The notes below the pieces were generated by a model. It was not told the origin of the DNA. It saw only the letters and a program-made list of their open reading frames with translations, and searched no databases. Both the position numbers and the translations under genes were made by a program. A stretch of 64,000 bases of DNA from Myxococcota bacterium (GTDB lineage: Bacteria > Myxococcota_A > Polyangia > HGW-17), in assembly GCA_018821305.1 (NCBI GenBank), contig JAHJMN010000199.1, positions 1-64,000 on the forward strand, written 5' to 3'. Positions within the stretch are counted from its first letter, which is position 1. Every line of letters starts with the position of its first letter. Shown in pieces: positions 30,484 to 46,886 of the stretch.

Positions 30484-30563
30484 AATCTTTAAGTTTGGAT
30501 TTTTAAGCATGAAAGTCACCCTCAGTTCTTTTGGGGAAGAAATCGGATTCGTGGAAACTACGT

Positions 30564-33293
30564 ATGACAGATAATCAAGAAAAAAAAATACAATCCTGGT
30601 ATTACCGGAACAGAAAAAAATTGTATTTCAGCATAATTTTGCTGGTTCTATTTATCGGAATATCTGTTGCCTTATTTTTATATTATCGCAATGATTCTGG
30701 AACTTCGGAAATAGTTTTTAAAAATCGTGAAATCAGAATCCTTGGAATTGCAAGGGTACTTCCCGCCGCTGATTATGTAAAACCTGCAGTTTTATTGACG
30801 GATATGGCTGGAAATCCCGTTCCTTTATTGTCTTTTAAAGATAATGAATTTTATTATTTTCTTGATATTAATGGGAAATATCGAATCACTGTTACATCTC
30901 CTTTGGCGGAGAGTCGAACCGTAATATGGTCAAAACCCTGGGAAAATCTTGATATTGAACTGGTAGTTAAGCCTTTTGCAGCGGGTATAGTAGTTGATTC
31001 CGAAGACATGCCCGTTTCCGGGGCAAAAGTTATGGTAAAAGATAAGGATTCAAAAGAAAAATACGCTCAAACGGGGAAAAACGGGGAGTTCTTTATTGGA
31101 CTTGATTCCGATACTCTTAATCGTCTGTCGGTTTTTAATGAAGGATATACGGAGATTAAGGATTTTGTTCTGGATAAGGATTCAAAAGCCCTCGTACTGC
31201 GGATCACAAAAACAAACAGTCTTGGCATCAGAACACTTGATGCTGAAGGAAATCCCGTTCCCGGCTGTTCCATAGTTTTTGGGGGAGAGGGAATCTGGCC
31301 CCCGGTTCATCTCGTTTCCGGACCAGATGGGAAAGTTGCAGTGAGAGGCGTTTCTGAAGGTTACTACTCCGTATCCGCCTGGAATGAAAAGTTGACCGGA
31401 GATATGGACGGTTTTTATGTAGAAAAAAACACTGAAACGGAAATCCACCTGCATATGGATCCCGGAACAAAACTGAAATTTCTCGTGAGGGACAGGAAAT
31501 CCGGTGTGGGAATTGAGGGGGCATCGGTAACTGTTGCCCTGGAAGATCCCGGAATCATATCTCATACTATGGAAACGGATAAAAATGGCTTTATTACGAC
31601 AGCGCCATTGAAAAAGGGGAAGATCCGGTTCAATATTACAGCACCGGGGTATATTAATTTATCTGGACGTCGATACTGGGTTTCCGATACTGATAAATTT
31701 GCTGTATTTGAAATGGACCGGGGACTTACATTGCGCGGTCAGGTTGTTGATGAGCGGGATCTGCCAGTGGAAAACGCCATCGTGGAGATCCACGGAACTG
31801 ACTCCGCTGGACACATGGTAACTCCTGTTTCCCTTGGTTCATCAGAACTTAAACCATCAAAAGAACTCGGCGTAACTGCAAAAAAAACGACTATCGGCCT
31901 TCTCACGGATGGCGCCGTTACTACAGATTCCGAAGGAAAATTTATACTTACTGGTATTCCTTCAGGTATTTTGGGTTTGAGGGTCAAGCATCAGGATTAT
32001 TCCAGCGGATTTATGCATCTGGGGTATGTGGAAAAAACCCGGGACGATATATTGTTAAAATTAAAAAAAGGGCGGGATCTTACAGGGTATATTGTTGATA
32101 AAGCTGGTATTCCCCTTGGTGGAACGGAAATTCGTGTTGAATCAGATTTTGCACCGGACTTCAGTTTTACGACCTATGCGGATAACTCCGGGAATTTTAA
32201 AATCAGCGGTTGTCCCGAAGTGGTTACCCTTACTTATCGCCTTCTGGGTTTTTCTCCGGTTACGGAAACAATCAAACCTGCTGGAGATCACAAAGTGATT
32301 CTGGATCGTGCGGAGACTTACTTTTCGATTTTTGTCAGGGACAATAGAAGTATTCCTCTTTCCGGAGCTCTTGTAACTATTGAAAGTACCAATCGGCCGG
32401 AAGTTTTTTCAACTATTTCGGGGCCCAGTGGCAAAACTGACTTTAAAAATACTGGAAAATGCCCCTTCCGGGTTACTGTGAATCATCAGGAATATCCAGA
32501 GTACAGTTTTATGCTGGAAAAATGCGAAGATAAGAATGTGGAACTTCCTGCGGGTGGCGGATTTGAACTTTTCATTAGAGATAAGAGAACATCAAATCCT
32601 TTAAGCGGCACATTAAAAATGTATCATTCCTCCGGATCAGAGGAAGAATTTGCTTTTTCAAAGGGAAAGGTTCGTCGTAGCGGGGTATCTGAAGGGGCAT
32701 ATACTGCGGTTATAGCTTCGTTTGGTTATGCTGATGTGATTATTTCATTGAAAATTCCAAAGGGTAATTCCCCGGGAGAAATAACTCTAAAAGAACGCAT
32801 TATTGAGATGGAAATGGGGGGGACAGTTACGGGAAATGTCGTGGACTACTATGGTTATCCAGTGAAATATGCTCGCGTTATTGCTGGAAATGAAACGACT
32901 TTTACCGATGCTGTGGGCAATTTCACTGTGAAATCCCTGGAAAGTGGAACTGTTACTTTTCACATCTGGCATCAGTTGAAGGGTTACGCAAAAAAAGATG
33001 TGACTGTTGAAAGCAACTCCACTACGAGCGGAGTAAATATTCGCATGGGGCAGATAGGTGAAAAGCACCGGAAAAAGCTTACTTTTATTAAAAAGAATGG
33101 GAGGCTTTATGCGGATCCGATTCCCAGAGACCTTGCGGAAGTATTAACTTCTAATGATGAAATTCTTTCGGTGAATGGTCTAGGGGCAACAGTTCCATTA
33201 GAGTTGATTAATCGTCGAATTGCAATGGGGGGCGGGGTTATCTACTTGACACTAAAAGTAAAAGGTAGAGGAATTGAATCAGTTTTCTACTGA
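30564..33293 (+). CDS. membrane-anchored protein of repeated carboxypeptidase regulatory-like domains with a PDZ-like end
   Basis: The protein has about 909 residues from the ATG at 30564. It has a short cytoplasmic N-terminus, one membrane helix ('FSIILLVLFIGISVALFLYY', about 27-46), then a long outer part of eight or more beta-sandwich repeats. These have the pattern 'G.V.D..g.Pv.gA.V.......TD..G.F...gl..G' ('GQVVDERDLPVENAIVEIHG', 'GYIVDKAGIPLGGTEIRVE', 'GNVVDYYGYPVKYARVI'). The last 60 residues ('DLAEVLTSNDEILSVNGLGA') resemble a PDZ domain. It probably projects into the periplasm as a ruler or binding protein. The partner is unknown. Confidence 0.78.
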   Translation: MTDNQEKKIQSWYYRNRKKLYFSIILLVLFIGISVALFLYYRNDSGTSEIVFKNREIRILGIARVLPAADYVKPAVLLTDMAGNPVPLLSFKDNEFYYFLDINGKYRITVTSPLAESRTVIWSKPWENLDIELVVKPFAAGIVVDSEDMPVSGAKVMVKDKDSKEKYAQTGKNGEFFIGLDSDTLNRLSVFNEGYTEIKDFVLDKDSKALVLRITKTNSLGIRTLDAEGNPVPGCSIVFGGEGIWPPVHLVSGPDGKVAVRGVSEGYYSVSAWNEKLTGDMDGFYVEKNTETEIHLHMDPGTKLKFLVRDRKSGVGIEGASVTVALEDPGIISHTMETDKNGFITTAPLKKGKIRFNITAPGYINLSGRRYWVSDTDKFAVFEMDRGLTLRGQVVDERDLPVENAIVEIHGTDSAGHMVTPVSLGSSELKPSKELGVTAKKTTIGLLTDGAVTTDSEGKFILTGIPSGILGLRVKHQDYSSGFMHLGYVEKTRDDILLKLKKGRDLTGYIVDKAGIPLGGTEIRVESDFAPDFSFTTYADNSGNFKISGCPEVVTLTYRLLGFSPVTETIKPAGDHKVILDRAETYFSIFVRDNRSIPLSGALVTIESTNRPEVFSTISGPSGKTDFKNTGKCPFRVTVNHQEYPEYSFMLEKCEDKNVELPAGGGFELFIRDKRTSNPLSGTLKMYHSSGSEEEFAFSKGKVRRSGVSEGAYTAVIASFGYADVIISLKIPKGNSPGEITLKERIIEMEMGGTVTGNVVDYYGYPVKYARVIAGNETTFTDAVGNFTVKSLESGTVTFHIWHQLKGYAKKDVTVESNSTTSGVNIRMGQIGEKHRKKLTFIKKNGRLYADPIPRDLAEVLTSNDEILSVNGLGATVPLELINRRIAMGGGVIYLTLKVKGRGIESVFY

Positions 33294-33396: not shown

Positions 33397-33443
33397 AGCA
33401 TCGGGTAGAAGTTCACAGGTTACTTTTGCAGGAGATAGCCGAA

Positions 33444-34178
33444 ATGACACAGCAGACGGATCCGGAAATTCTTTTTTCGTCATTCAATGTCTATAATCAG
33501 ATAAGACCAATGCTTGGTACATACCATGTAATTGATATCCAGATCGATAACTCAGCTCAGGTGCTGGAGAATATCCAACTAAAGGATGTCAATCATTTCC
33601 ACGATTCTGTATGGCTAAAAACCATGGGGCTTTGTCTCGCGTATACCTGCAATCAGACTCAGGCTCTTTTCGGTCTCGCTGGAAGTTATAATATGCTTCT
33701 CGTTTATTCTCTTCCGGCGACCCAGCGGGAAGGAACGGGCCTTCTTGCAACTTGCGCTTCCGCTGCAACTTCGTTTTTATCGTCTCATACGGGTACGCCT
33801 GCTCGTTTTTCCGGTAAAGTCATGGAATTTCCGGAACCTAAAATTATGGCAGCATATTTTTTATGGAAGCAGAATGAAAACCGTAATGTTATTATTCAGA
33901 GCATTGTTCTTGAGGCATTGATGAGTCGCGGAAATACTTTTGAGCAGGCTCGCGAGATGCTCATGGCTCTTTCGGATCTCAAATCAAAACTCAGTTTAGT
34001 CAGCGATTTTCTACAAGTAGAAAAAATACCTCAGTGGCTTCTGAATGGTATATGTACCTACTGGAAAATTGACAACAACGAATTAAAACTGTCACTGAAC
34101 CAGACTGTTCCCGATGGACCGGATTTTCTGTCATACATGGTGGAAATTTTTGAACAAAATACAGGAACTGATAAATGA
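33444..34178 (+). CDS. degenerate Thg1-like (tRNA-His guanylyltransferase fold) protein
   Basis: By eye this 244-residue protein follows the Thg1-like order from end to end. It has an N-terminal 'FSSFNVYNQIRPMLGTYHVI' like 'F..YE......L....P.ivRLDG', a strand 'IDIQID' (30-35), and 'LFGLAGSYNMLLVY' (75-88) where active enzymes have 'Y.QSDE.S'. Next are 'QREGTGLLATCASAATSFLS' (94-113), and 'ARFSGKVMEFP' then 'YFLWKQNENRN' (138-148) where they have 'FDCRVF..P' and 'LWRQ.D...N'. One Asp of the metal site (D35) may remain, but the SDE Asp and Glu are Gly80 and Ser81. A nucleotide-binding but non-catalytic protein is likely. AGGAG lies 9 nt before the ATG. Its stop overlaps the next start (ATGA). 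Confidence 0.55.
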   Translation: MTQQTDPEILFSSFNVYNQIRPMLGTYHVIDIQIDNSAQVLENIQLKDVNHFHDSVWLKTMGLCLAYTCNQTQALFGLAGSYNMLLVYSLPATQREGTGLLATCASAATSFLSSHTGTPARFSGKVMEFPEPKIMAAYFLWKQNENRNVIIQSIVLEALMSRGNTFEQAREMLMALSDLKSKLSLVSDFLQVEKIPQWLLNGICTYWKIDNNELKLSLNQTVPDGPDFLSYMVEIFEQNTGTDK

Positions 34179-35533
34179 ATTTTGTTTGTGATAAATGTAC
34201 AACCAGATATTCAATTCCCGATGAGAAAGTTGCCGGAAAGATTCTAAAACTCCGGTGTAAAAAGTGCGGAAACACAATAATTCTTAAAGACCCGAAAGCG
34301 GACCCTGAAGAAAAGCAACACACAGGGACTGATGAAGGTCGAGTACTGTTGCAAAATGCTTTCAAGCAATCTCTTTCTCAAAAAGTCAGTACTTCCGAAC
34401 GAAAGATGATTTCTCCTGAACCGGAGAGGTCATCGGGCGATAAGACGCAACTTGTTAAAATTCCAGGATTTCAGGAACAGGTTCCCGATGAAGAATGGTA
34501 CCTGTCTGATTCTCGAGGCCAGGTTGGGCCAATGCCTTTCAACGAACTCGTTGCTCGAATCAAGCGAGGAGAGCCGGATCCTGATGCCGTTGTCTGGCGT
34601 GACGGATTCCGTGACTGGCTAACCATCGATATGGTTCCCGAGTTGAGATCTTATTATAAACACGTTCCGCCCCCCCGGCGACCTACTCGTGAAGTTGCTC
34701 GAGCTGAGGCACCACCACAGCAATCCTCTTCACAGATTGTAGCTCAACCTCCGGTGACAGCACCACAACCGGCCGCGGTACAGGCTCCTTCGATTAACGT
34801 TGCATCATCCCGGGAATTTAATCAACAGTCTGCACCAGCTCAGATAATTATTCCCGCCGAGGCATTGAGTCCATTTAAAGGAAAAACAATTCCCATTGTT
34901 GTTATTTCAGCTATCGCCGTGATCGCAGCATTCTTCCTGGGGGCAAAATTTATGGGTGGAGGTAAATCATCCGACAAGCCGGCTCCCGTTCAAAAGGAAA
35001 ATAATCAAGTTGTTGTAAAAGATAAAGTAAAAGAAAATATACCTGTGTCTGACATGACTCCGCAAATGAGTGAAGTGGTATATATTGTGGCAAATGACAC
35101 AGATAAAGATAAAGACAAAACTCCGGAAGATTCGGATATGAACGAATCACCGATGGGAAAACGAAATAACGGGAAAAAGAAGATTCCGGATATTATGGTT
35201 CCCGATATTGATCCCAGCAAACTGGAAATTAACGAAACACCAAAACCTGCAGTAAGCAGAGGTACTGGCGGTCTCAATCAATTTATGACACTTAATCAAA
35301 GCCAGATTACCCGTTGTTATGCCAGAGCCGTCCGGATGGGGCAGAAGGAACTTGTGGACCAGTCTATCAAAATTCACATCCGGGTTAATGCTGCTGGAAA
35401 ACTTTCTTCCATCAGTTTCACGGGAAAGATGCCACCGGTAATGAAAAACTGTATGATCAGTACAATTACAGGTTTTAAATTTCCTAAAGGAAACCAGACA
35501 GATAGTCTGACTTACACTATACACTTCAACTGA
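34175..35533 (+). CDS. GltJ/AgmX-like protein: zinc ribbon, GYF_2 domain, one membrane helix, AgmX/PglI C-terminal domain
   Basis: Residues 1-37 are an MJ0042-type zinc ribbon (Cys5, Cys8, Cys28, Cys31). Residues 105-155 are a GYF_2 domain ('EWYLSDSRGQVGPMPFNELV', then 'WRDGFRDWLTI'). A Pro/Gln-rich linker follows, a single membrane helix lies at about 238-258 ('IPIVVISAIAVIAAFFLGAK'), and the last 85 residues ('LNQSQITRCYARAVRMGQKE', 'FKFPKG') form the AgmX/PglI-type TonB-like end domain. This is the order of Myxococcus GltJ, whose zinc ribbon and GYF domains work on the cytoplasmic side of the gliding machine. The protein is shorter here and no other glt gene is in the window, so a different trans-envelope role is possible. 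Confidence 0.85.
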   Translation: MNFVCDKCTTRYSIPDEKVAGKILKLRCKKCGNTIILKDPKADPEEKQHTGTDEGRVLLQNAFKQSLSQKVSTSERKMISPEPERSSGDKTQLVKIPGFQEQVPDEEWYLSDSRGQVGPMPFNELVARIKRGEPDPDAVVWRDGFRDWLTIDMVPELRSYYKHVPPPRRPTREVARAEAPPQQSSSQIVAQPPVTAPQPAAVQAPSINVASSREFNQQSAPAQIIIPAEALSPFKGKTIPIVVISAIAVIAAFFLGAKFMGGGKSSDKPAPVQKENNQVVVKDKVKENIPVSDMTPQMSEVVYIVANDTDKDKDKTPEDSDMNESPMGKRNNGKKKIPDIMVPDIDPSKLEINETPKPAVSRGTGGLNQFMTLNQSQITRCYARAVRMGQKELVDQSIKIHIRVNAAGKLSSISFTGKMPPVMKNCMISTITGFKFPKGNQTDSLTYTIHFN

Positions 35534-35543
35534 GGTATTTGTT

Positions 35544-36491
35544 ATGCAATTGTATGTCAGAACAGGGAAATCCGATAAGCGACACTTTTTAGTTTCTTTT
35601 AAAACACTATGCTCACTGATGTTTATAAGTGTTTTCGGTTTTACCGGGTGCAGAAATTCTTCGGATGGCTGTAAGAAAGATACTGATTGCCGTGAGGGAA
35701 GAGTCTGCAGCAAGGGCGAATGTATTGATACTGGAGTTAAGGTTTTAAACGGCGACAAAACTAAAAAGCCTGATAAGAAATCTGTTAAAACTCCTGACAA
35801 GATACCACCATCTAATCATATTGTTACGCCGATCCAGCCACCAATAAAATCAGATCCTTTAGGGCCAATTCTTAAAAATTTAAATCTGAATCTTGATTTA
35901 GATGCTCCAGGAGGAAAGATATCTTTTCGAATGAAAGGAATGAAAAACGGGGTTCCGGCTATTGAAATGTGTCAGAAGGGTAAGTGCTCTGAGGTTGATA
36001 TGAGTGATCCCGATTCCATGGTAGACATAATGACAAAATTAATGGGAAGTGGAAATCCTACGGATCTTATGTCGCAGTTTCTTAAAAATTTCAATAATTT
36101 AGGCCCAATGATTCCTGGAAACCGAAATCCCGGGTTTCCCCGCCCTGTTATTCCCAATGTAAATCCACGGAATCCTGTAATTTCTCCATCAAATCCTTTG
36201 CCCGGAGGTCCCTATCGCTCGGTTAAAGATATTCTCAAAGATAAAAACCGTGCGGCAGGTAGAGAGGCCATACTTGGTGGAATGAAGCCCGTGAACATCA
36301 GTTTACCGGATCGTGTGGATTTTAAAACTACCGGTGGTGTTAAGATTGAAACAACCGTCAATGCCTCTGTAAGAACACATCTGCGCAAACTGGCTAAAAT
36401 ATCCGGTACTGTAATAATCCGCATAAAGATTCAGAGAGTGTCTGGAACCCTTATTCGTGGTGAACTTACTGAACTTGATTTCAACAACTAA
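35544..36491 (+). CDS. proline-rich lipoprotein of the GltJ-like operon
   Basis: The 315-residue precursor has a long signal with the lipobox 'VFGFTGC' (Cys36), then a small Cys-rich segment ('CKKDTDCREGRVCSKGEC') and a Lys/Pro linker. The middle is rich in Pro, Asn and Gly ('PNVNPRNPVISPSNPLPGG'), and the end is a possible folded domain of about 100 residues rich in beta segments. GAGG lies 8 nt before the ATG, 10 nt after the GltJ-like gene. No family was recognised. It could be the outer-envelope partner of the TonB-like end of the preceding protein. Confidence 0.7.
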   Translation: MQLYVRTGKSDKRHFLVSFKTLCSLMFISVFGFTGCRNSSDGCKKDTDCREGRVCSKGECIDTGVKVLNGDKTKKPDKKSVKTPDKIPPSNHIVTPIQPPIKSDPLGPILKNLNLNLDLDAPGGKISFRMKGMKNGVPAIEMCQKGKCSEVDMSDPDSMVDIMTKLMGSGNPTDLMSQFLKNFNNLGPMIPGNRNPGFPRPVIPNVNPRNPVISPSNPLPGGPYRSVKDILKDKNRAAGREAILGGMKPVNISLPDRVDFKTTGGVKIETTVNASVRTHLRKLAKISGTVIIRIKIQRVSGTLIRGELTELDFNN

Positions 36492-36502: not shown

Positions 36503-38365
36503 ATGAACCTGATATTTTTATTCACTGCCTTATTCAGTTCGCCATCTCCTGACATTGTTATCACTGGCCATTTTGTTGATGTAAAAGTCTCAAAAACGGG
36601 TGCTTCAACAACTGTTGAGAGAAAAACCTGGCAAATTCTTTCGGACGAAGGGGTTAAACATCTCATAACTCATCGTTTTGATTATGATCCTTCCACAAAC
36701 AGGATAAAGATTCTATCGATATCCCGCATTCGACCTGGAGGAAAAAAAACGGCACTCAAATGCAATGAAGTAGATCTTCCGCAAAGTGCCGGTTGGATTT
36801 TATGGCGTTTTTGGATGAAAATTATTACTTGTCCAGCTCTTGAAACGGGAGACTCACTTGAAATAGTAACTGAAAAGAAAGGGTTTATGATTGCTTATCT
36901 GAGAGGAGGAGAGGAATTTATACCTCCCATGAAGGGGCATTTTTATGATCAGGTTCTTTTCGGGGACGAGCCATGGCAGGTGAATTTTAAAAAATACACA
37001 GTGATGGTTCCGGATAATATGAGGCTTAGAGCATCTGTGTACAACGGCTCAATTAATTCTTCTGTTAATTACAAGGGAAAGAACACAATTTACAGTTGGT
37101 GGCGTGGTGGTCTTAAAGCCCACAAGCGGGAAATGGGGAGCCCATCGGAAAGTGATTATCTTCCAAAAGTCGTTATGGCGACAGTACATAACTGGGAGGA
37201 AAAAAGCCGCTGGTTTTATGAAGTTAATAAAAATCAATTTGAGCCAACCCCGGAAATAAAAGCCATGGTTGCAAAGATTATTAAGGGAGTCGCAGACAAA
37301 AAACGGCAGATGACGCTCCTCAACCGTTGGGTGGCAGGTAATATCCGGTACCGGGGCTGGTCCAATGGAAAACAAGAAGGTTATACACTTCACAGCGGCG
37401 ATCAGGTGTTTACTCAGCGTGCTGGTGTTTGCAAAGATATTGCTTCAATGTTGATTACAATGCTTAAAGCTGCCGGGTTTGAAGTATATCCTGCCATGAC
37501 GATGGCCGGTGCCAGAGTCGAAAATATTCCCGCTGATCAGTTCAATCACAGCGTTGTTGCGGTTAAAATGCCCGATGGTTCCTTTCATATGCTTGATCCC
37601 ACCTGGGCTCCCTTTTCACGACATGACTGGTCTTACGCGGAACGTGAACAGTATTATGTGGTTGGGACTCCACGTGGGGAAACTTTAATGAAAATACCCG
37701 CTTCTCGACCGGAAGAAAATACAATTTCATTAAAAGCAGTGTCGAAAATAGGGGCAACCTATTCCAGTATATGGACCCTTCGGGGCAGTGGCTATGCCGA
37801 TGATTCTCTGCGTCGTATGATTGCTTTCACATCCATTCCTGAGCGTGCTATGATTCCTGAGCTTTTTGTCAGGAAGTTAGCAGGGGCAACTGTTTCCACT
37901 ACCGGTTATCTGGATCCTGGCAATCTCGATCGTGAGATGAGCATGAATCTACGCTGGTCTTCGAAAAATCTTATAATCCAGACACCGGGAGGATTGATTT
38001 TTACTCCCTCCAGTCTGAGTGCTATTCCCGACCGGGTTGCATTGTTGTCATGGTTAAATATCAAAAACAAAAAGCGTAGTTCCCCGATTTTATTAAGGGC
38101 AAATCATGTTCTGGAAATTGATGAAGATATTGTATTTCCAAGTGCATTTGATTTAAAAGTTGAAAAATTTTCCGGTTCTTATGAAAGTAACCATTTCAAG
38201 ATGAACTGGTCATATACTGTTCAAGGCAAGGTTCTGAAAATAAAAGTCAAAGTTGTGGTGCCTCATAGAACCATTCCTTCATCTTCTTTTTCGGATTTTA
38301 TGAAGGGTGTCTCAATATTACGTAAACTTTCCAGTGAAAAACTGGTGGTAAAATTTAAAAAATAA
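36503..38365 (+). CDS. DUF3857/transglutaminase-like exported protein, triad intact
   Basis: The 620-residue protein begins with a short signal ('NLIFLFTALFSS'). A DUF3857-like N-terminal beta domain follows ('ERKTWQILSDEGVKHLITHR', 'ISRIRPGGKKT'), then a transglutaminase core with Cys310 in 'QRAGVCKDIASMLITMLKAA', His349 in 'QFNHSVVAVKM' and Asp365 in 'HMLDPTWAPF'. All three catalytic residues are present, so it may be a periplasmic transglutaminase or protease. The C-terminal 200 residues are beta-rich. It lies 11 nt before a paralogue that lacks these residues. Confidence 0.82.
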   Translation: MNLIFLFTALFSSPSPDIVITGHFVDVKVSKTGASTTVERKTWQILSDEGVKHLITHRFDYDPSTNRIKILSISRIRPGGKKTALKCNEVDLPQSAGWILWRFWMKIITCPALETGDSLEIVTEKKGFMIAYLRGGEEFIPPMKGHFYDQVLFGDEPWQVNFKKYTVMVPDNMRLRASVYNGSINSSVNYKGKNTIYSWWRGGLKAHKREMGSPSESDYLPKVVMATVHNWEEKSRWFYEVNKNQFEPTPEIKAMVAKIIKGVADKKRQMTLLNRWVAGNIRYRGWSNGKQEGYTLHSGDQVFTQRAGVCKDIASMLITMLKAAGFEVYPAMTMAGARVENIPADQFNHSVVAVKMPDGSFHMLDPTWAPFSRHDWSYAEREQYYVVGTPRGETLMKIPASRPEENTISLKAVSKIGATYSSIWTLRGSGYADDSLRRMIAFTSIPERAMIPELFVRKLAGATVSTTGYLDPGNLDREMSMNLRWSSKNLIIQTPGGLIFTPSSLSAIPDRVALLSWLNIKNKKRSSPILLRANHVLEIDEDIVFPSAFDLKVEKFSGSYESNHFKMNWSYTVQGKVLKIKVKVVVPHRTIPSSSFSDFMKGVSILRKLSSEKLVVKFKK

Positions 38366-38376
38366 ACTGGTGATCA

Positions 38377-40137
38377 ATGTTTTTACCTGCTCTTATTATT
38401 TTATTGTCCGCTCCAGGGACGGATGACTCCACAATTCTTGAACGCAACTGGAGCTTCACACTGGATTCGGGTCTCATTTCAATAAAATACAGTTCTTCTG
38501 AAACGCTCAATACCCCCCTTGCCAGAGATATGTTTTCCGATTTGCGGATACCCTGGGACAAATCATGTCAGAAACTCTCAACTTCAGCTTACACACTGAC
38601 TGGAAATAAAAAACTCAGCACTCCTTCTCAGGGAATTAATGAAGTGGTTCCATTTGGTTTTGAGAAAATTCCCGGCGGAACTACAAAGCGTGAGACCGTT
38701 GTCAGTGCCGCAGGAGCAACGGATCAGAGCAAAGTTTTTTATGAATATACTATAAATCCGAAAGGGAAGTGCCCCGGTGTTTTTGAATATACTATTCCTC
38801 TTGTGGAAGGAAGACCTGTCGAAAAATTGATTGTCCGAATTGATACTGCTCTTAACTGGAAGGTTTTATGGAAACCGGCCGGGTGCAAAGTATCCCGGGA
38901 GGGTCGTTATAATGTTATTACTTGCCTGAAAATAAAAGGGGCAGGATATCGAAATATTGCCGGACGCCGCTCATCTTCTTCCCGGGTTTTGTCAAGACTC
39001 CCAAGAGTTATGATTTCTGCATGGGACGAAAAATCCCTTAAACAGCATCTGAGCAATCTCGATACGCAGGCTTTACTTAATCTTAAAAATTTGATTCCAT
39101 CGGCACTTAAAGAAATAACTGATGGGGAATTTACTCTATGGGGGAAAATTGAAAAACTTACTCAATGGCTTGGACGAAATATCAAAAAACTCCCGGAAGG
39201 AACAGTTTCTTCGCTGAAGGATACAATAAAATACAGGGCTGCAGATGGTACTTTTCGTGCGGTATTAGCTGCTGCCCTTATAAATAATTTTATAAGCAAA
39301 GCAAAGGGCGTACATTTAGTTCATGTTTCAGATTTAAGTACAGAAATGAAAGATTTTGTTACACTCAGCCATTATGATAATAAATTTGTCGTATTTAAAA
39401 TTACTGGGAAAACATACATTTACAATCCAATCACTGGAGAACTAAAAAGTAATTTTAAAATGCTGGGAGGAAAACCATTCATTGCCGCCGATTCTGTGGT
39501 TCCCCGTCGAGTACAGGATGGGGAGAAGCGTACTTTACGGCTCCGGGGAATACTTAAACAAGATACTATTTCGTTTGAAGGTCAGTTATACACAGAAAAA
39601 CCCGTATTGAAAATCTGTGCAGATAATTTAAAATCATTAGGTCTGAAAATAACTTCATGCAATTTCGATGAAAAAACATTGGATTACACTGTTATTCGTT
39701 TTTCCGGAGATTTGATTCTGTCCCACGGCTACACAGTTATTCCTCTTTTAGGACGGTTTGCACCGGATACTAAACCCCGTGTGTCAAGACAGTACAATCT
39801 TGCTTTACCTCTAAAAAAACGATTTGTTTCAGTAGATCTGGTTCTTGATACCGGTGGACGAAACCTGTTTTCCATGAATTTTCCTGCGGGTGTTTTCAAA
39901 CCCATAAATGGCAAACTGAATGGTGCAATCATTGATTTTTTTACGAATTACACCTATTCCTACGGAAATGGAATTATTAAAATAAAAACAGAACACAGTA
40001 CAGAAGCCGTAGATATTCTTCCGTTATATTACGGATTAAAGACAAAAATAAACATCACCGGTTTATACCGTGATACTTTGAACTTCGGAGACACAGGCAT
40101 AGTATTTCATGAAAAAACTTCAGATTCAGGACAGTAA
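38377..40137 (+). CDS. transglutaminase-like paralogue that seems to lack the catalytic triad
   Basis: This 586-residue protein has the same order and length of segments as its upstream neighbour: short signal ('FLPALIILLSA'), beta-rich half, a helical pair ('FTLWGKIEKLTQWLGRNIKK'), a core, and a beta-rich end. In the core, 'YRAADGTFRAVLAAALI' (286-302) stands where the neighbour has 'QRAGVCKDIASMLITML', putting Gly291 in place of Cys. 'KTYIYNPITG' replaces 'FHMLDPTW', putting Asn in place of Asp. It looks like a non-catalytic partner that may pair with the active enzyme. The alignment was made by eye. Confidence 0.6.
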   Translation: MFLPALIILLSAPGTDDSTILERNWSFTLDSGLISIKYSSSETLNTPLARDMFSDLRIPWDKSCQKLSTSAYTLTGNKKLSTPSQGINEVVPFGFEKIPGGTTKRETVVSAAGATDQSKVFYEYTINPKGKCPGVFEYTIPLVEGRPVEKLIVRIDTALNWKVLWKPAGCKVSREGRYNVITCLKIKGAGYRNIAGRRSSSSRVLSRLPRVMISAWDEKSLKQHLSNLDTQALLNLKNLIPSALKEITDGEFTLWGKIEKLTQWLGRNIKKLPEGTVSSLKDTIKYRAADGTFRAVLAAALINNFISKAKGVHLVHVSDLSTEMKDFVTLSHYDNKFVVFKITGKTYIYNPITGELKSNFKMLGGKPFIAADSVVPRRVQDGEKRTLRLRGILKQDTISFEGQLYTEKPVLKICADNLKSLGLKITSCNFDEKTLDYTVIRFSGDLILSHGYTVIPLLGRFAPDTKPRVSRQYNLALPLKKRFVSVDLVLDTGGRNLFSMNFPAGVFKPINGKLNGAIIDFFTNYTYSYGNGIIKIKTEHSTEAVDILPLYYGLKTKINITGLYRDTLNFGDTGIVFHEKTSDSGQ

Positions 40138-43060: not shown

Positions 43061-43079
43061 CACGGAAGTGAGGATGACG

Positions 43080-46000
43080 ATGAAAAAGAATCTTTCAGTA
43101 ATATTTTCAACTCTTGTCATTTTATCCCTTCCGGTCAGCGCTTCTGCCGGAAGTCGATTTTATGCAGCTTTAGATCAGTTTGTATTTGGAACAAGCGCAT
43201 ACTGCTACAGTCAACTGGATCGCACGACTTACAACACAGGGTTTTCCTCATCGGATTTTAATTCTACAATGAGTGTCGATGTTGTAAGTGGCAAGATTGT
43301 TCTTAATACGGATCAGCGGGCGTTAGGTGATACAAACCGCATCATGATTCGTACAAGGCAGAATCTTACGGTAAAATACGTGTACGAGAGTGCTGACCAG
43401 TCCCAGACTCTCGGGTGGTTTTTATGGGATAACCGTGCTTCACAATTCACAACCCAAAGTGGATACAGTTACACGGATCGCCCCTGCAGTTCCGATGCAA
43501 ACTGCGACATGGGTGAATCATGCCAGACATGCTCCTCCGGTTGTGTGGCCACCAAGGTTTGCGCATATCCAAGACTAGTACTTCGCGACAATACGGGATA
43601 TCCAGGTACAGGAAGCTCAAACGGTGTTTATGACTGGTTTGAAGCCCTTTACTCCAAACCCTCCGGTTCCACTAACGTTTACACTTTTCCCTCTTTAGTC
43701 AGGCCTTTTCCCACTACAAAACCGTATCCCGGGTATAGTTGGCCCTGGCAACAGCAACTCTGGAACTACGATTATTACAACCTTACTACTACCTCTCTTA
43801 GGGATGAAGGAACCTGGCCTCGAATTTCTAATTTTCTGGAATACCTTGTTGATACGGGAGGTGGTTGGCTGTTCATGCTCGCCGATGACGATACCGACTA
43901 TGAAACTACGGTAACCTGCCGCAGTTGGGATTACGCTGAACCCGGTTGTTATTATGCTGTGCAGCACTGGCAGTGGGGCTCCTTTTATCTTCCCCCCTAC
44001 AAAGACAATTACGGTTCCTTTAATGGTGTTCCGGACTACGATGTAAACGGCGACGGTTCTGTCACATCGGCAGATCGCACCGTTGATATGGGTACATTTG
44101 ATGCGGGAAGTGAATTGATTTTCTTTCTCAATTCATATTATCGAAACGTTGCTGCCAGATATGAAAGTATCGGTATGAAAAAATCCTCCAGTTGGTACTT
44201 CCCAACGGTTCGTGTCGGTTCCATGCCATATTTCAGTAAATCAATTTTAAATCCGGACTATAAAACTACCGGGACAAATACTCGAGCTCTGGATATCGGT
44301 TGCAGTTTTACTTTCTCAAATGGTTATCCAGGGCACACCTGTTCCGGCATAATGGGTTGGCTTGATCAGGCTGCTATTAACCGGCTTAATACCGCGGATT
44401 ATAATTATCTTGTCCTGCCCCACGAAATTAAAAACTACAAAACCATTGAAAATGGCATAAGAACCCATGTTGTGCTTGGTGCTCCATCCACGGATCCCAC
44501 CCGATGGCTTTTAGGCTTTGAGCAGTTATATGATGGCGGTCCAGGTGGTGAAGATAACTCCGGTAACGACTACAACGATGTTGTTATCCTTATAGAAAGA
44601 CAGAATGGTGGCGAGGCGGTCAGTGACCTTGTGGCAACGGAAATTCCGGCTTCACAACTCGGAAATACTACTGTTACAAAAGTAAAAATAACTAAAAACG
44701 ACTATATCCCAATTCCGCCGTGCACGCCGGAACCGGAGACCAGAATCGACTATTACATCAGTATTTCTGAAGACAGCGGCGGCAACCCAATCTGGATTCT
44801 TATCGACTTCCCCACAGGGAGCAACACGGCAACTCTGGATCTCGCTTCTTTAGGCTATACCGGTGCAAAACTTCGCTGGAAGGTTGAAATTATTTCCCCC
44901 AATGAAAGTTGCAGACCCGAAGTTCGCGACGTGGATATCGGCTATGAAGCACTGGTAGGTGGTGACTATACTTTCTCAACCCCTCTTCCCATTGCAAACG
45001 TAATGTTTAAAGGAACCCTTGAGACTGCATCCTCATCCTGGACTGTTACAGGTAGCGATCTGCGCAACCGCGGGCATTTTTACATGTACGAACTTTACGA
45101 TGCTTCAAATCCCAATGCCACAAATGTTACTACAATCTGGGATGCGGGTCAGAAACTCGCTACCCGGGATCCTTCCACCAGGACTATTTACACAAACAGC
45201 GGTCTTACACGTAAAACTTTTACTGCTGGAACGGATACCTGGCTTCTCTCAAATATCCTTTCGACACCTGAACGGAATCTTAAACATAACGGTAAACCCG
45301 TCTACGACGTAAACGGTGACGGTTATGCCAACGATAATGACGCCCGACAGATGATCAACTGGACCCGGGGAAAAGAACATCCCATTGGGACGCAGCCCGC
45401 TTCCATTCCGAATCGCGCCTGGCCTCTTGGATCAATTCATCGTTCCACGGCTGCAGTTGTTACACCACCGGGAGTTCCCGCCTGGATGCAGGGAACCGCT
45501 ATTCCTCCGGCGCTGAAAAGTGCTTATAATACCTGGGCAACAACTCCGGCTCAAGCTGAGCGAGATACCATCGTGGTTGTAGGTGCCCAGGATGGAATGC
45601 TCCATGCTTTCAATGCCGGTAAATATCGACAGGGAGATGATCCTGCAACAACTTCAATTGTTGAACAGCGTGGATATTTCAAGAAAAACGGTTCATTGCG
45701 CGAATATGGCGATGGAAGCGAATTATGGGCATGGATTCCCCCATCCCAGCTTTCAAACCTTAAAAACAACTATGTTAAAACCTATTACCCCGAAACGCAC
45801 CCCTGGGCTCAGATAAACGGCAGTGTTACTCTGGATGACATACTTTACCAGAATAACTGGTCCACAGCGATTTTCTATACTCACGGTCCGATACATCCGT
45901 ATATCAGTGCTTTGAACGTCACGGACCCTGGCGATCCTCAGATAATGTGGGCAAATGACTGGACGGACAATAACTATCACGGGACTTATCAGCCTCCCGC

Positions 46001-46886
46001 GGTAGCCTGGTTTAACTCCGATCGATATGGTGGAAAGGGTAAAACCTGGGCTGTTGCCACCACAAGTGGAATGAGCGATGACTATGAGGATGTTTATTTG
46101 TTCCTTATCGACGCCGATGACGGTTCAACTCTGCCCTACGGCAAGACAAAACTCAATATCGGTAGTGGAAACGCAGGTCAGAAGTCCCTTGGTGTATGGG
46201 GAAGTCCTGTAGCAATTGATTTTGATGGTGATGGCTATACTGATCGCTTCTATGTTGCCGATGCCAACGGCCGAGTCTGGAAACACTACATGAACGGCAC
46301 AAATAATAACAGATGCCTTGTGGCGGATGTTGGCCCTGAACCGATTTATGTAACGCCGGCTTTCAAAGTTGCAAAAGATCTTTCCACAGGCCAGAACGTG
46401 GTAGCTTTCTATTTTGGAACCGCAGACCATCCGGACCTCAACGATGCTGTAAGTTCGCCATATTCTTTCTATGCTTTTGTGGATCGTGACGCAGATCTGG
46501 CATGTTCCAGCTCCGAGATGATTTATCGATTTACTCTGCCTGCAGATGAAAAAGTCTGGGCTGATGCGTTTATTTCCGGTGATGAAGTATATCTTGGTAC
46601 CTCCACGGGAAATAAAGCTGACATCTGTGACGAAGATCCCTCAAATCCCGGGACAATTTACTCACTGGCTTTAGATGCCAACTCATCTGGTCTTCCTGTG
46701 CAGAATACTGCGCCGGTAAGTGCAGGTGGTAACGTTGTTTCAGGACTTATGGTTTACGACGAACACTTGTTTATTAACTCTCTGGGCGGTAAGACAAAAA
46801 TTATCGGCGGAGATAAATGGAATAACACTGCGGGTTCAAGCAGCGCATTTGCGGGAGTTGAAGATGTATACTGGAAAGAACAATAA
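43080..46886 (+). CDS. PilY1-like pilus tip adhesin
   Basis: The 1268-residue exported protein has a signal peptide ending 'PVSASAG'. A Cys-rich patch lies near 138-165 ('CSSDANCDMGESC'). Next are two dockerin-like calcium loops ('DVNGDGSVTSADRT' near 322, 'DVNGDGYANDNDAR' near 742), a DUF4114-like segment ('GGEDNSGNDYNDVVILIE') and a C-terminal PilY1 propeller from about 830 ('VVVGAQDGMLHAFNAG', 'LWAWIPPSQL'). The conserved calcium loop 'DFDGDGYTDRFYVADANGRV' is present. PilY1 controls pilus extension and adhesion. I use the ATG at 43080, with AGG 6 nt before it. The following gene starts inside its end. Confidence 0.88.
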   Translation: MKKNLSVIFSTLVILSLPVSASAGSRFYAALDQFVFGTSAYCYSQLDRTTYNTGFSSSDFNSTMSVDVVSGKIVLNTDQRALGDTNRIMIRTRQNLTVKYVYESADQSQTLGWFLWDNRASQFTTQSGYSYTDRPCSSDANCDMGESCQTCSSGCVATKVCAYPRLVLRDNTGYPGTGSSNGVYDWFEALYSKPSGSTNVYTFPSLVRPFPTTKPYPGYSWPWQQQLWNYDYYNLTTTSLRDEGTWPRISNFLEYLVDTGGGWLFMLADDDTDYETTVTCRSWDYAEPGCYYAVQHWQWGSFYLPPYKDNYGSFNGVPDYDVNGDGSVTSADRTVDMGTFDAGSELIFFLNSYYRNVAARYESIGMKKSSSWYFPTVRVGSMPYFSKSILNPDYKTTGTNTRALDIGCSFTFSNGYPGHTCSGIMGWLDQAAINRLNTADYNYLVLPHEIKNYKTIENGIRTHVVLGAPSTDPTRWLLGFEQLYDGGPGGEDNSGNDYNDVVILIERQNGGEAVSDLVATEIPASQLGNTTVTKVKITKNDYIPIPPCTPEPETRIDYYISISEDSGGNPIWILIDFPTGSNTATLDLASLGYTGAKLRWKVEIISPNESCRPEVRDVDIGYEALVGGDYTFSTPLPIANVMFKGTLETASSSWTVTGSDLRNRGHFYMYELYDASNPNATNVTTIWDAGQKLATRDPSTRTIYTNSGLTRKTFTAGTDTWLLSNILSTPERNLKHNGKPVYDVNGDGYANDNDARQMINWTRGKEHPIGTQPASIPNRAWPLGSIHRSTAAVVTPPGVPAWMQGTAIPPALKSAYNTWATTPAQAERDTIVVVGAQDGMLHAFNAGKYRQGDDPATTSIVEQRGYFKKNGSLREYGDGSELWAWIPPSQLSNLKNNYVKTYYPETHPWAQINGSVTLDDILYQNNWSTAIFYTHGPIHPYISALNVTDPGDPQIMWANDWTDNNYHGTYQPPAVAWFNSDRYGGKGKTWAVATTSGMSDDYEDVYLFLIDADDGSTLPYGKTKLNIGSGNAGQKSLGVWGSPVAIDFDGDGYTDRFYVADANGRVWKHYMNGTNNNRCLVADVGPEPIYVTPAFKVAKDLSTGQNVVAFYFGTADHPDLNDAVSSPYSFYAFVDRDADLACSSSEMIYRFTLPADEKVWADAFISGDEVYLGTSTGNKADICDEDPSNPGTIYSLALDANSSGLPVQNTAPVSAGGNVVSGLMVYDEHLFINSLGGKTKIIGGDKWNNTAGSSSAFAGVEDVYWKEQ

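Follow-up and report, generated by a model that had tools for sequence, protein, structure and literature searches.

The window, that is, the whole 64,000-nt stretch of DNA that was analysed, carries the gene of a pseudo-Thg1-like protein (pTLP) within a row of genes on the forward strand (table 1). Its ORF begins with an ATG and ends with a TGA overlapping the start codon of the following gene (ATG at 34175), as the initial annotation had reported for this GltJ/AgmX-like neighbor. The same annotation had placed pTLP as the first gene of an envelope operon, a position which is not established: relatives possess a same-strand gene approximately 50 bp upstream, and a promoter search gave no match. 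The third gene follows the pTLP–AgmX pair in three further genomes of the family too. Next to it, two DUF3857-type genes stand in tandem (36503–40137), the first with the transglutaminase core, an arrangement of this genome only. Further downstream (43068–46883), a protein of 1272 aa shows weak matches to PilY1 and dockerin. Tblastn searches with pTLP against phages and plasmids gave no match, and thus pTLP is not an obvious mobile gene.

Table 1. Features of the pTLP locus, with positions in the window
Feature	Position	Strand	Remarks
CarboxypepD_reg repeat protein, upstream of pTLP	30531..33293	+	Upstream position kept in two relatives
Ribosome-binding site AGGAGA	33430..33435	+	From sequence; 8 nt upstream of the pTLP ATG
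Pseudo-Thg1-like protein (pTLP) gene	33444..34178	+	244 aa; predicted cytoplasmic, no TM segment
Gln33 codon	33540..33542	+	Aligned with human Thg1 Asp29, a metal ligand
Ser81-Tyr82-Asn83 codons	33684..33692	+	Place of Ser75-Asp76-Glu77 (SDE), from alignments
GltJ/AgmX-like bitopic protein gene	34175..35533	+	4-nt overlap (ATGA) of its start with the pTLP stop
Third gene	35544..36491	+	315 aa; putative secreted protein or lipoprotein
DUF3857 + transglutaminase-like envelope protein	36503..38365	+	Linkage to pTLP in this genome only
Weak DUF3857-like protein	38377..40137	+	Linkage to pTLP in this genome only

When searched alone, the window protein had no match in Pfam even at an E value of 10, and therefore none to the Thg1 domain PF04446; NCBIfam and PDB gave no meaningful match either. 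Relatives were retrieved from the window's family, order and class by a six-frame search. A scan of genome contigs with P0001 as the query returned no relative, and the named organisms mentioned below came from the scan which used the Nannocystaceae subset. Of 17 family members, 11 matched PF04446 at E<1 (best E value 1.6e-10), and several of the more conserved relatives exceeded its curated cut-off. The profile of all 17 found the Thg1-like protein (TLP) of Methanosarcina acetivorans (5axk, 2.4e-20) in the PDB, as well as human Thg1 (1.5e-14). As a guard against circularity, a second profile was made from the window clade only (five sequences of family f1 and one of f3). Its top three PDB matches were all Thg1/TLP, at 2e-5 to 2.6e-5, including human Thg1 (3otb) at 2e-5 and the M. 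acetivorans TLP at 2.6e-5. In hhalign comparisons with five canonical proteins, the wider family reached a probability of 99.4%, above the 95% which the initial annotation had named as supportive, and the window clade alone 88.5% (E=2.7e-6).

The predicted structures point to the same superfamily. AlphaFold2 models were obtained from the 17-member alignment (pLDDT 88, pTM 0.86) and from the window-clade sequences only (pLDDT 85, pTM 0.84). For both models, all 32 Foldseek matches in the PDB below 1e-3 were Thg1/TLP chains with a probability of 1.00 and TM scores of 0.55–0.78, and no different fold appeared below this threshold. In the predicted models from these two alignments of different depth, the Thg1 fold spans the whole length of the protein. 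The best matches were the eukaryotic Thg1 structures (tRNA-His guanylyltransferase; 3otb and 7cv1), with a TM of about 0.7, from which pTLP differs in having neither the metal ligands nor a HINN-like segment. GGDEF, adenylyl cyclase and CRISPR Cas10 palm domains have a distant palm core in common with pTLP; the CRISPR polymerase and cyclase palms were far weaker matches than Thg1/TLP, with Foldseek E values of 3e-3 or worse and a TM of about 0.3. GGDEF or class III cyclases, whose E values lay above 1e-2, are thereby ruled out as the closest fold. The resemblance to Thg1, which had initially been seen by eye, is hence real, since clade and family profiles agree with the predicted structures, and the window protein is confirmed as a member of the Thg1/TLP superfamily.

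The TLPs of Myxococcus xanthus, Bacillus thuringiensis (4kgk/4kgm) and M. acetivorans (5axk) agree with pTLP over the whole length in their fold and in the order of their elements; a WRQ-like segment and a P-x-W...G segment near the C-terminus are likewise shared. The differences lie in the three catalytic carboxylates and K95, which pTLP has lost, in its linkage to kinase and envelope genes, and in its position in a clade of its own. In the TLP of B. thuringiensis, D30 is the counterpart of human D29, D75 of D76, and E76 of E77; D30 and D75 hold the two metals, and the replacement of D75 by Ala dramatically lowers activity (PMC3701042). In the alignments of the window protein, all three carboxylates are gone: D29 is replaced by Gln33, D76 by Tyr82 and E77 by Asn83. 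The loss of the SDE pair that had been proposed from the sequence is therefore upheld, but its placement at Gly80-Ser81 was one residue off, and Ser75 is in fact retained as Ser81. The reading of the RQ.D motif as KQNE was correct (K142-Q143-N144-E145). Among the activation and transfer residues, the equivalents of K95 and N158 are not conserved and R130 is replaced by Lys in the clade-profile alignment.

This pattern extends to the relatives. Every one of the 28 catalytic-clade proteins keeps D29, D76 and E77, and the catalytic xRxDG motif is found in none of the 50 pTLP rows. At the places of D76 and E77, members of the window family mostly carry Tyr-Asn, Tyr-His or Asn-Ser, with no acid. 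Judged from these alignments, the carboxylates are lost completely in the window clade, and this is a firm result; the claim is a little less secure for Nannocystaceae, where two extra residues render the D29 column uncertain. Throughout the pTLP family, W198 and G202 are the only invariant residues; those of the pocket differ from one of its families to another, and most nucleotide-contacting residues are gone. An active 3′-5′ polymerase with relocated metal ligands would draw on D31 and D35, acids which flank the lost D29 at a distance of two positions and are conserved in the window family, and on two Enhygromyxa proteins (L105 and L129) which have PDE in place of SDE, with the Asp-Glu kept and the D29 motif lost. 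Such an enzyme is nevertheless highly improbable, as D76/E77 are not replaced by an acid in most of the window family and the activation and transfer residues are altered too. The two Enhygromyxa pTLPs may represent stages on the way to an active site that is lost altogether.

The window pTLP belongs to a lineage of the class Polyangia (Myxococcota), with named bearers in Nannocystis (six named or numbered isolates), Plesiocystis pacifica, Enhygromyxa salina and Paraliomyxa. In a tree of 78 proteins, 50 pTLPs were separated from 28 intact Thg1/TLPs on one branch with a support of 100/100; the tree is unrooted, and long branches make the relations among the pTLP families uncertain. Five close pairs of pTLP relatives gave Ka/Ks values of 0.02–0.12, which indicates that the family is not decaying. 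These values refer to the relatives because Ks between the window gene and its nearest relative is saturated; constraint on the window gene itself rests on a full-length identity of 57% to that relative and on synteny. A decaying pseudogene or a chance resemblance would be suggested by a single sequence with no Pfam or PDB match, and the probability of this explanation is practically negligible. For the family, decay is refuted by Ka/Ks and by an open frame conserved across families, and chance similarity by the profile and fold matches to Thg1.

The window genome also encodes a second Thg1 on another contig (G000:C107; L116:7388-8221, minus strand), which is of the catalytic type with the motifs ARIDGK and TQSDE. 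It adjoins an AAA_33 (polynucleotide-kinase-like) gene and a pair formed by an AAA ATPase and a DUF4435 gene, surroundings that look like an RNA-repair or defence island. Most other pTLP genomes have no catalytic Thg1, and for this reason pTLP as a helper subunit of the catalytic enzyme was rejected.

The product of the gene coupled to pTLP has the layout of the GltJ/AgmX gliding-motility proteins, i.e., a zinc ribbon (aa 1–35, MJ0042), a GYF_2 domain (aa 108–157), a single TM segment (aa 234–252) and an AgmX/PglI-type C-terminal domain. This last domain is common to all AgmX/PglI-type proteins. It scored 24 bits against its own cut-off of 40 and aligns in 15 linked proteins. The product resembles GltJ but remains under the equivalog cut-off of the NCBIfam GltJ model NF033761 (85.3 bits against 450). 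A same-strand AgmX-like gene lies downstream of pTLP in 17 out of 17 loci of families f1, f3, f13, f16, f18 and f21, directly adjoining it in the window family and f3 and separated from it by one or two genes in the remaining families. In some f13/f16 loci (L088:10071-11621), the intervening gene encodes an MshEN-response regulator (REC)-TPR protein; in f21 (L089, L095, L098 and L101) it encodes the tRNA 2-thiocytidine synthetase TtcA, with ThiI on the opposite strand. GYF_2 genes number one to seven per genome in the 22 genomes checked, and the sole copy of G009 is the one linked to pTLP. The linked copies group together with a support of 100/100, and the GYF_2 paralogues which these genomes carry without linkage to pTLP fall outside the group.

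Upstream of pTLP lies a Ser/Thr kinase gene, whose end is no more than about 110 nt away from the pTLP start; this holds for all 20 informative loci (those of f10, f13, f16, f18 and f21 with enough upstream DNA, L090 being left out). The kinase is usually tail-anchored by a single C-terminal TM segment. In the window clade there is no kinase near pTLP; in Nannocystaceae the kinase is present but an AgmX-like gene is not linked, and neither partner occurs in families f2, f4 and f6. Large Myxococcota genomes encode 118 or more kinases each, so a single linkage could be due to chance, but not the whole pattern. Intervening genes such as those for TtcA, IlvA and HemW are housekeeping genes, and part of the linkage could thus reflect ordinary operon co-expression. 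Neighboring genes in GC-rich loci were called with a codon model. In Nannocystaceae, pTLP is followed by HemW, HrcA, GrpE, DnaK, DnaJ and an MglA-like GTPase, of which HemW and the GTPase were scanned and several others named by eye from their sequences. For instance, the stretch from pTLP to DnaJ is followed at L105:16914-17597 by the gene of an MglA/Arf-like small GTPase.

The neighborhood bears on a further explanation, namely that pTLP is a non-catalytic tRNA-binding protein (a chaperone of the tRNA 5′ end, or a decoy or regulator) and its envelope linkage incidental. tRNA is the ancestral substrate, the next gene in some sister loci is that of the tRNA thiolase TtcA, and ThiI and HemW are near. 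In the window family, however, no TtcA gene adjoins pTLP; most pTLP genomes have no catalytic Thg1 that could be assisted, and the clade of linked AgmX-like proteins is specific. This explanation is accordingly regarded as quite unlikely.

A sensor of nucleotides or cyclic dinucleotides, whose palm pocket would bind a ligand without metal-dependent chemistry and signal to the GltJ/AgmX-like protein, is a better candidate, although still an unlikely one. The palm fold appears intact in the predicted models, the serine of the SDE motif and the W-K/R-Q segment are kept, R130 is replaced by Lys, and signalling proteins are close by, such as the MshEN-REC-TPR protein mentioned above. Against it, the equivalents of D29, D76, E77 and K95 are lost and the pocket varies between families. 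The disappearance of most nucleotide-contacting residues favors an adaptor over a sensor.

The simplest reading of a cytoplasmic pTLP, a partner with a cytoplasmic end and a membrane kinase nearby is a non-catalytic adaptor or regulatory subunit. We consider it probable on balance that a catalytically dead Thg1 domain has been reused in this way within a signalling or envelope complex of the inner membrane. In the window family, pTLP, having lost two-metal catalysis, would act together with the GltJ/AgmX-like bitopic protein, to which it is translationally coupled, and may contact the cytoplasmic domains of that protein; the zinc ribbon and the GYF domain are expected in the cytoplasm and the C-terminal domain in the periplasm. 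In the sister families, the module would comprise a kinase, the dead Thg1 adaptor and the GltJ/AgmX-like envelope effector, with the kinase presumably supplying a phosphorylation input and the output directed to the envelope or to motility. GltJ acts in M. xanthus gliding as an effector of the polarity GTPase MglA (review PMC12288465), which makes such an output plausible. The more general proposal, that the whole Polyangia lineage of dead Thg1s serves as the cytoplasmic adaptor which connects a membrane Ser/Thr kinase to a dedicated trans-envelope protein of the GltJ/AgmX-like type, is put forward tentatively, at somewhat short of an even chance. The conserved GltJ/AgmX-like and kinase neighbors, from which the function is inferred, agree with the initial suggestion of a polymerase fold reused for a structural or sensing subunit.

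According to a review (PMC6471195), 3′-5′ nucleotide addition is common to all members of the Thg1 superfamily, and the TLP of M. xanthus is itself active. No description of an inactive or pseudoenzyme bacterial Thg1 was found in the open-access literature searched. The fold of pTLP is already known; pTLP represents a branch of the superfamily that consists of pseudoenzymes and has a new gene context. A class-wide lineage that is under selection and has no metal site would be the first Thg1 pseudoenzyme family in that literature, and suggests that bacterial "Thg1" annotations need a check of the active site. The lineage also offers a handle on a kinase/GltJ-like module in bacteria that include the culturable Nannocystis, Plesiocystis and Enhygromyxa. 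If the proposed role is true, the fold of a reverse polymerase would have been turned into a part of a signalling or envelope/motility machine.
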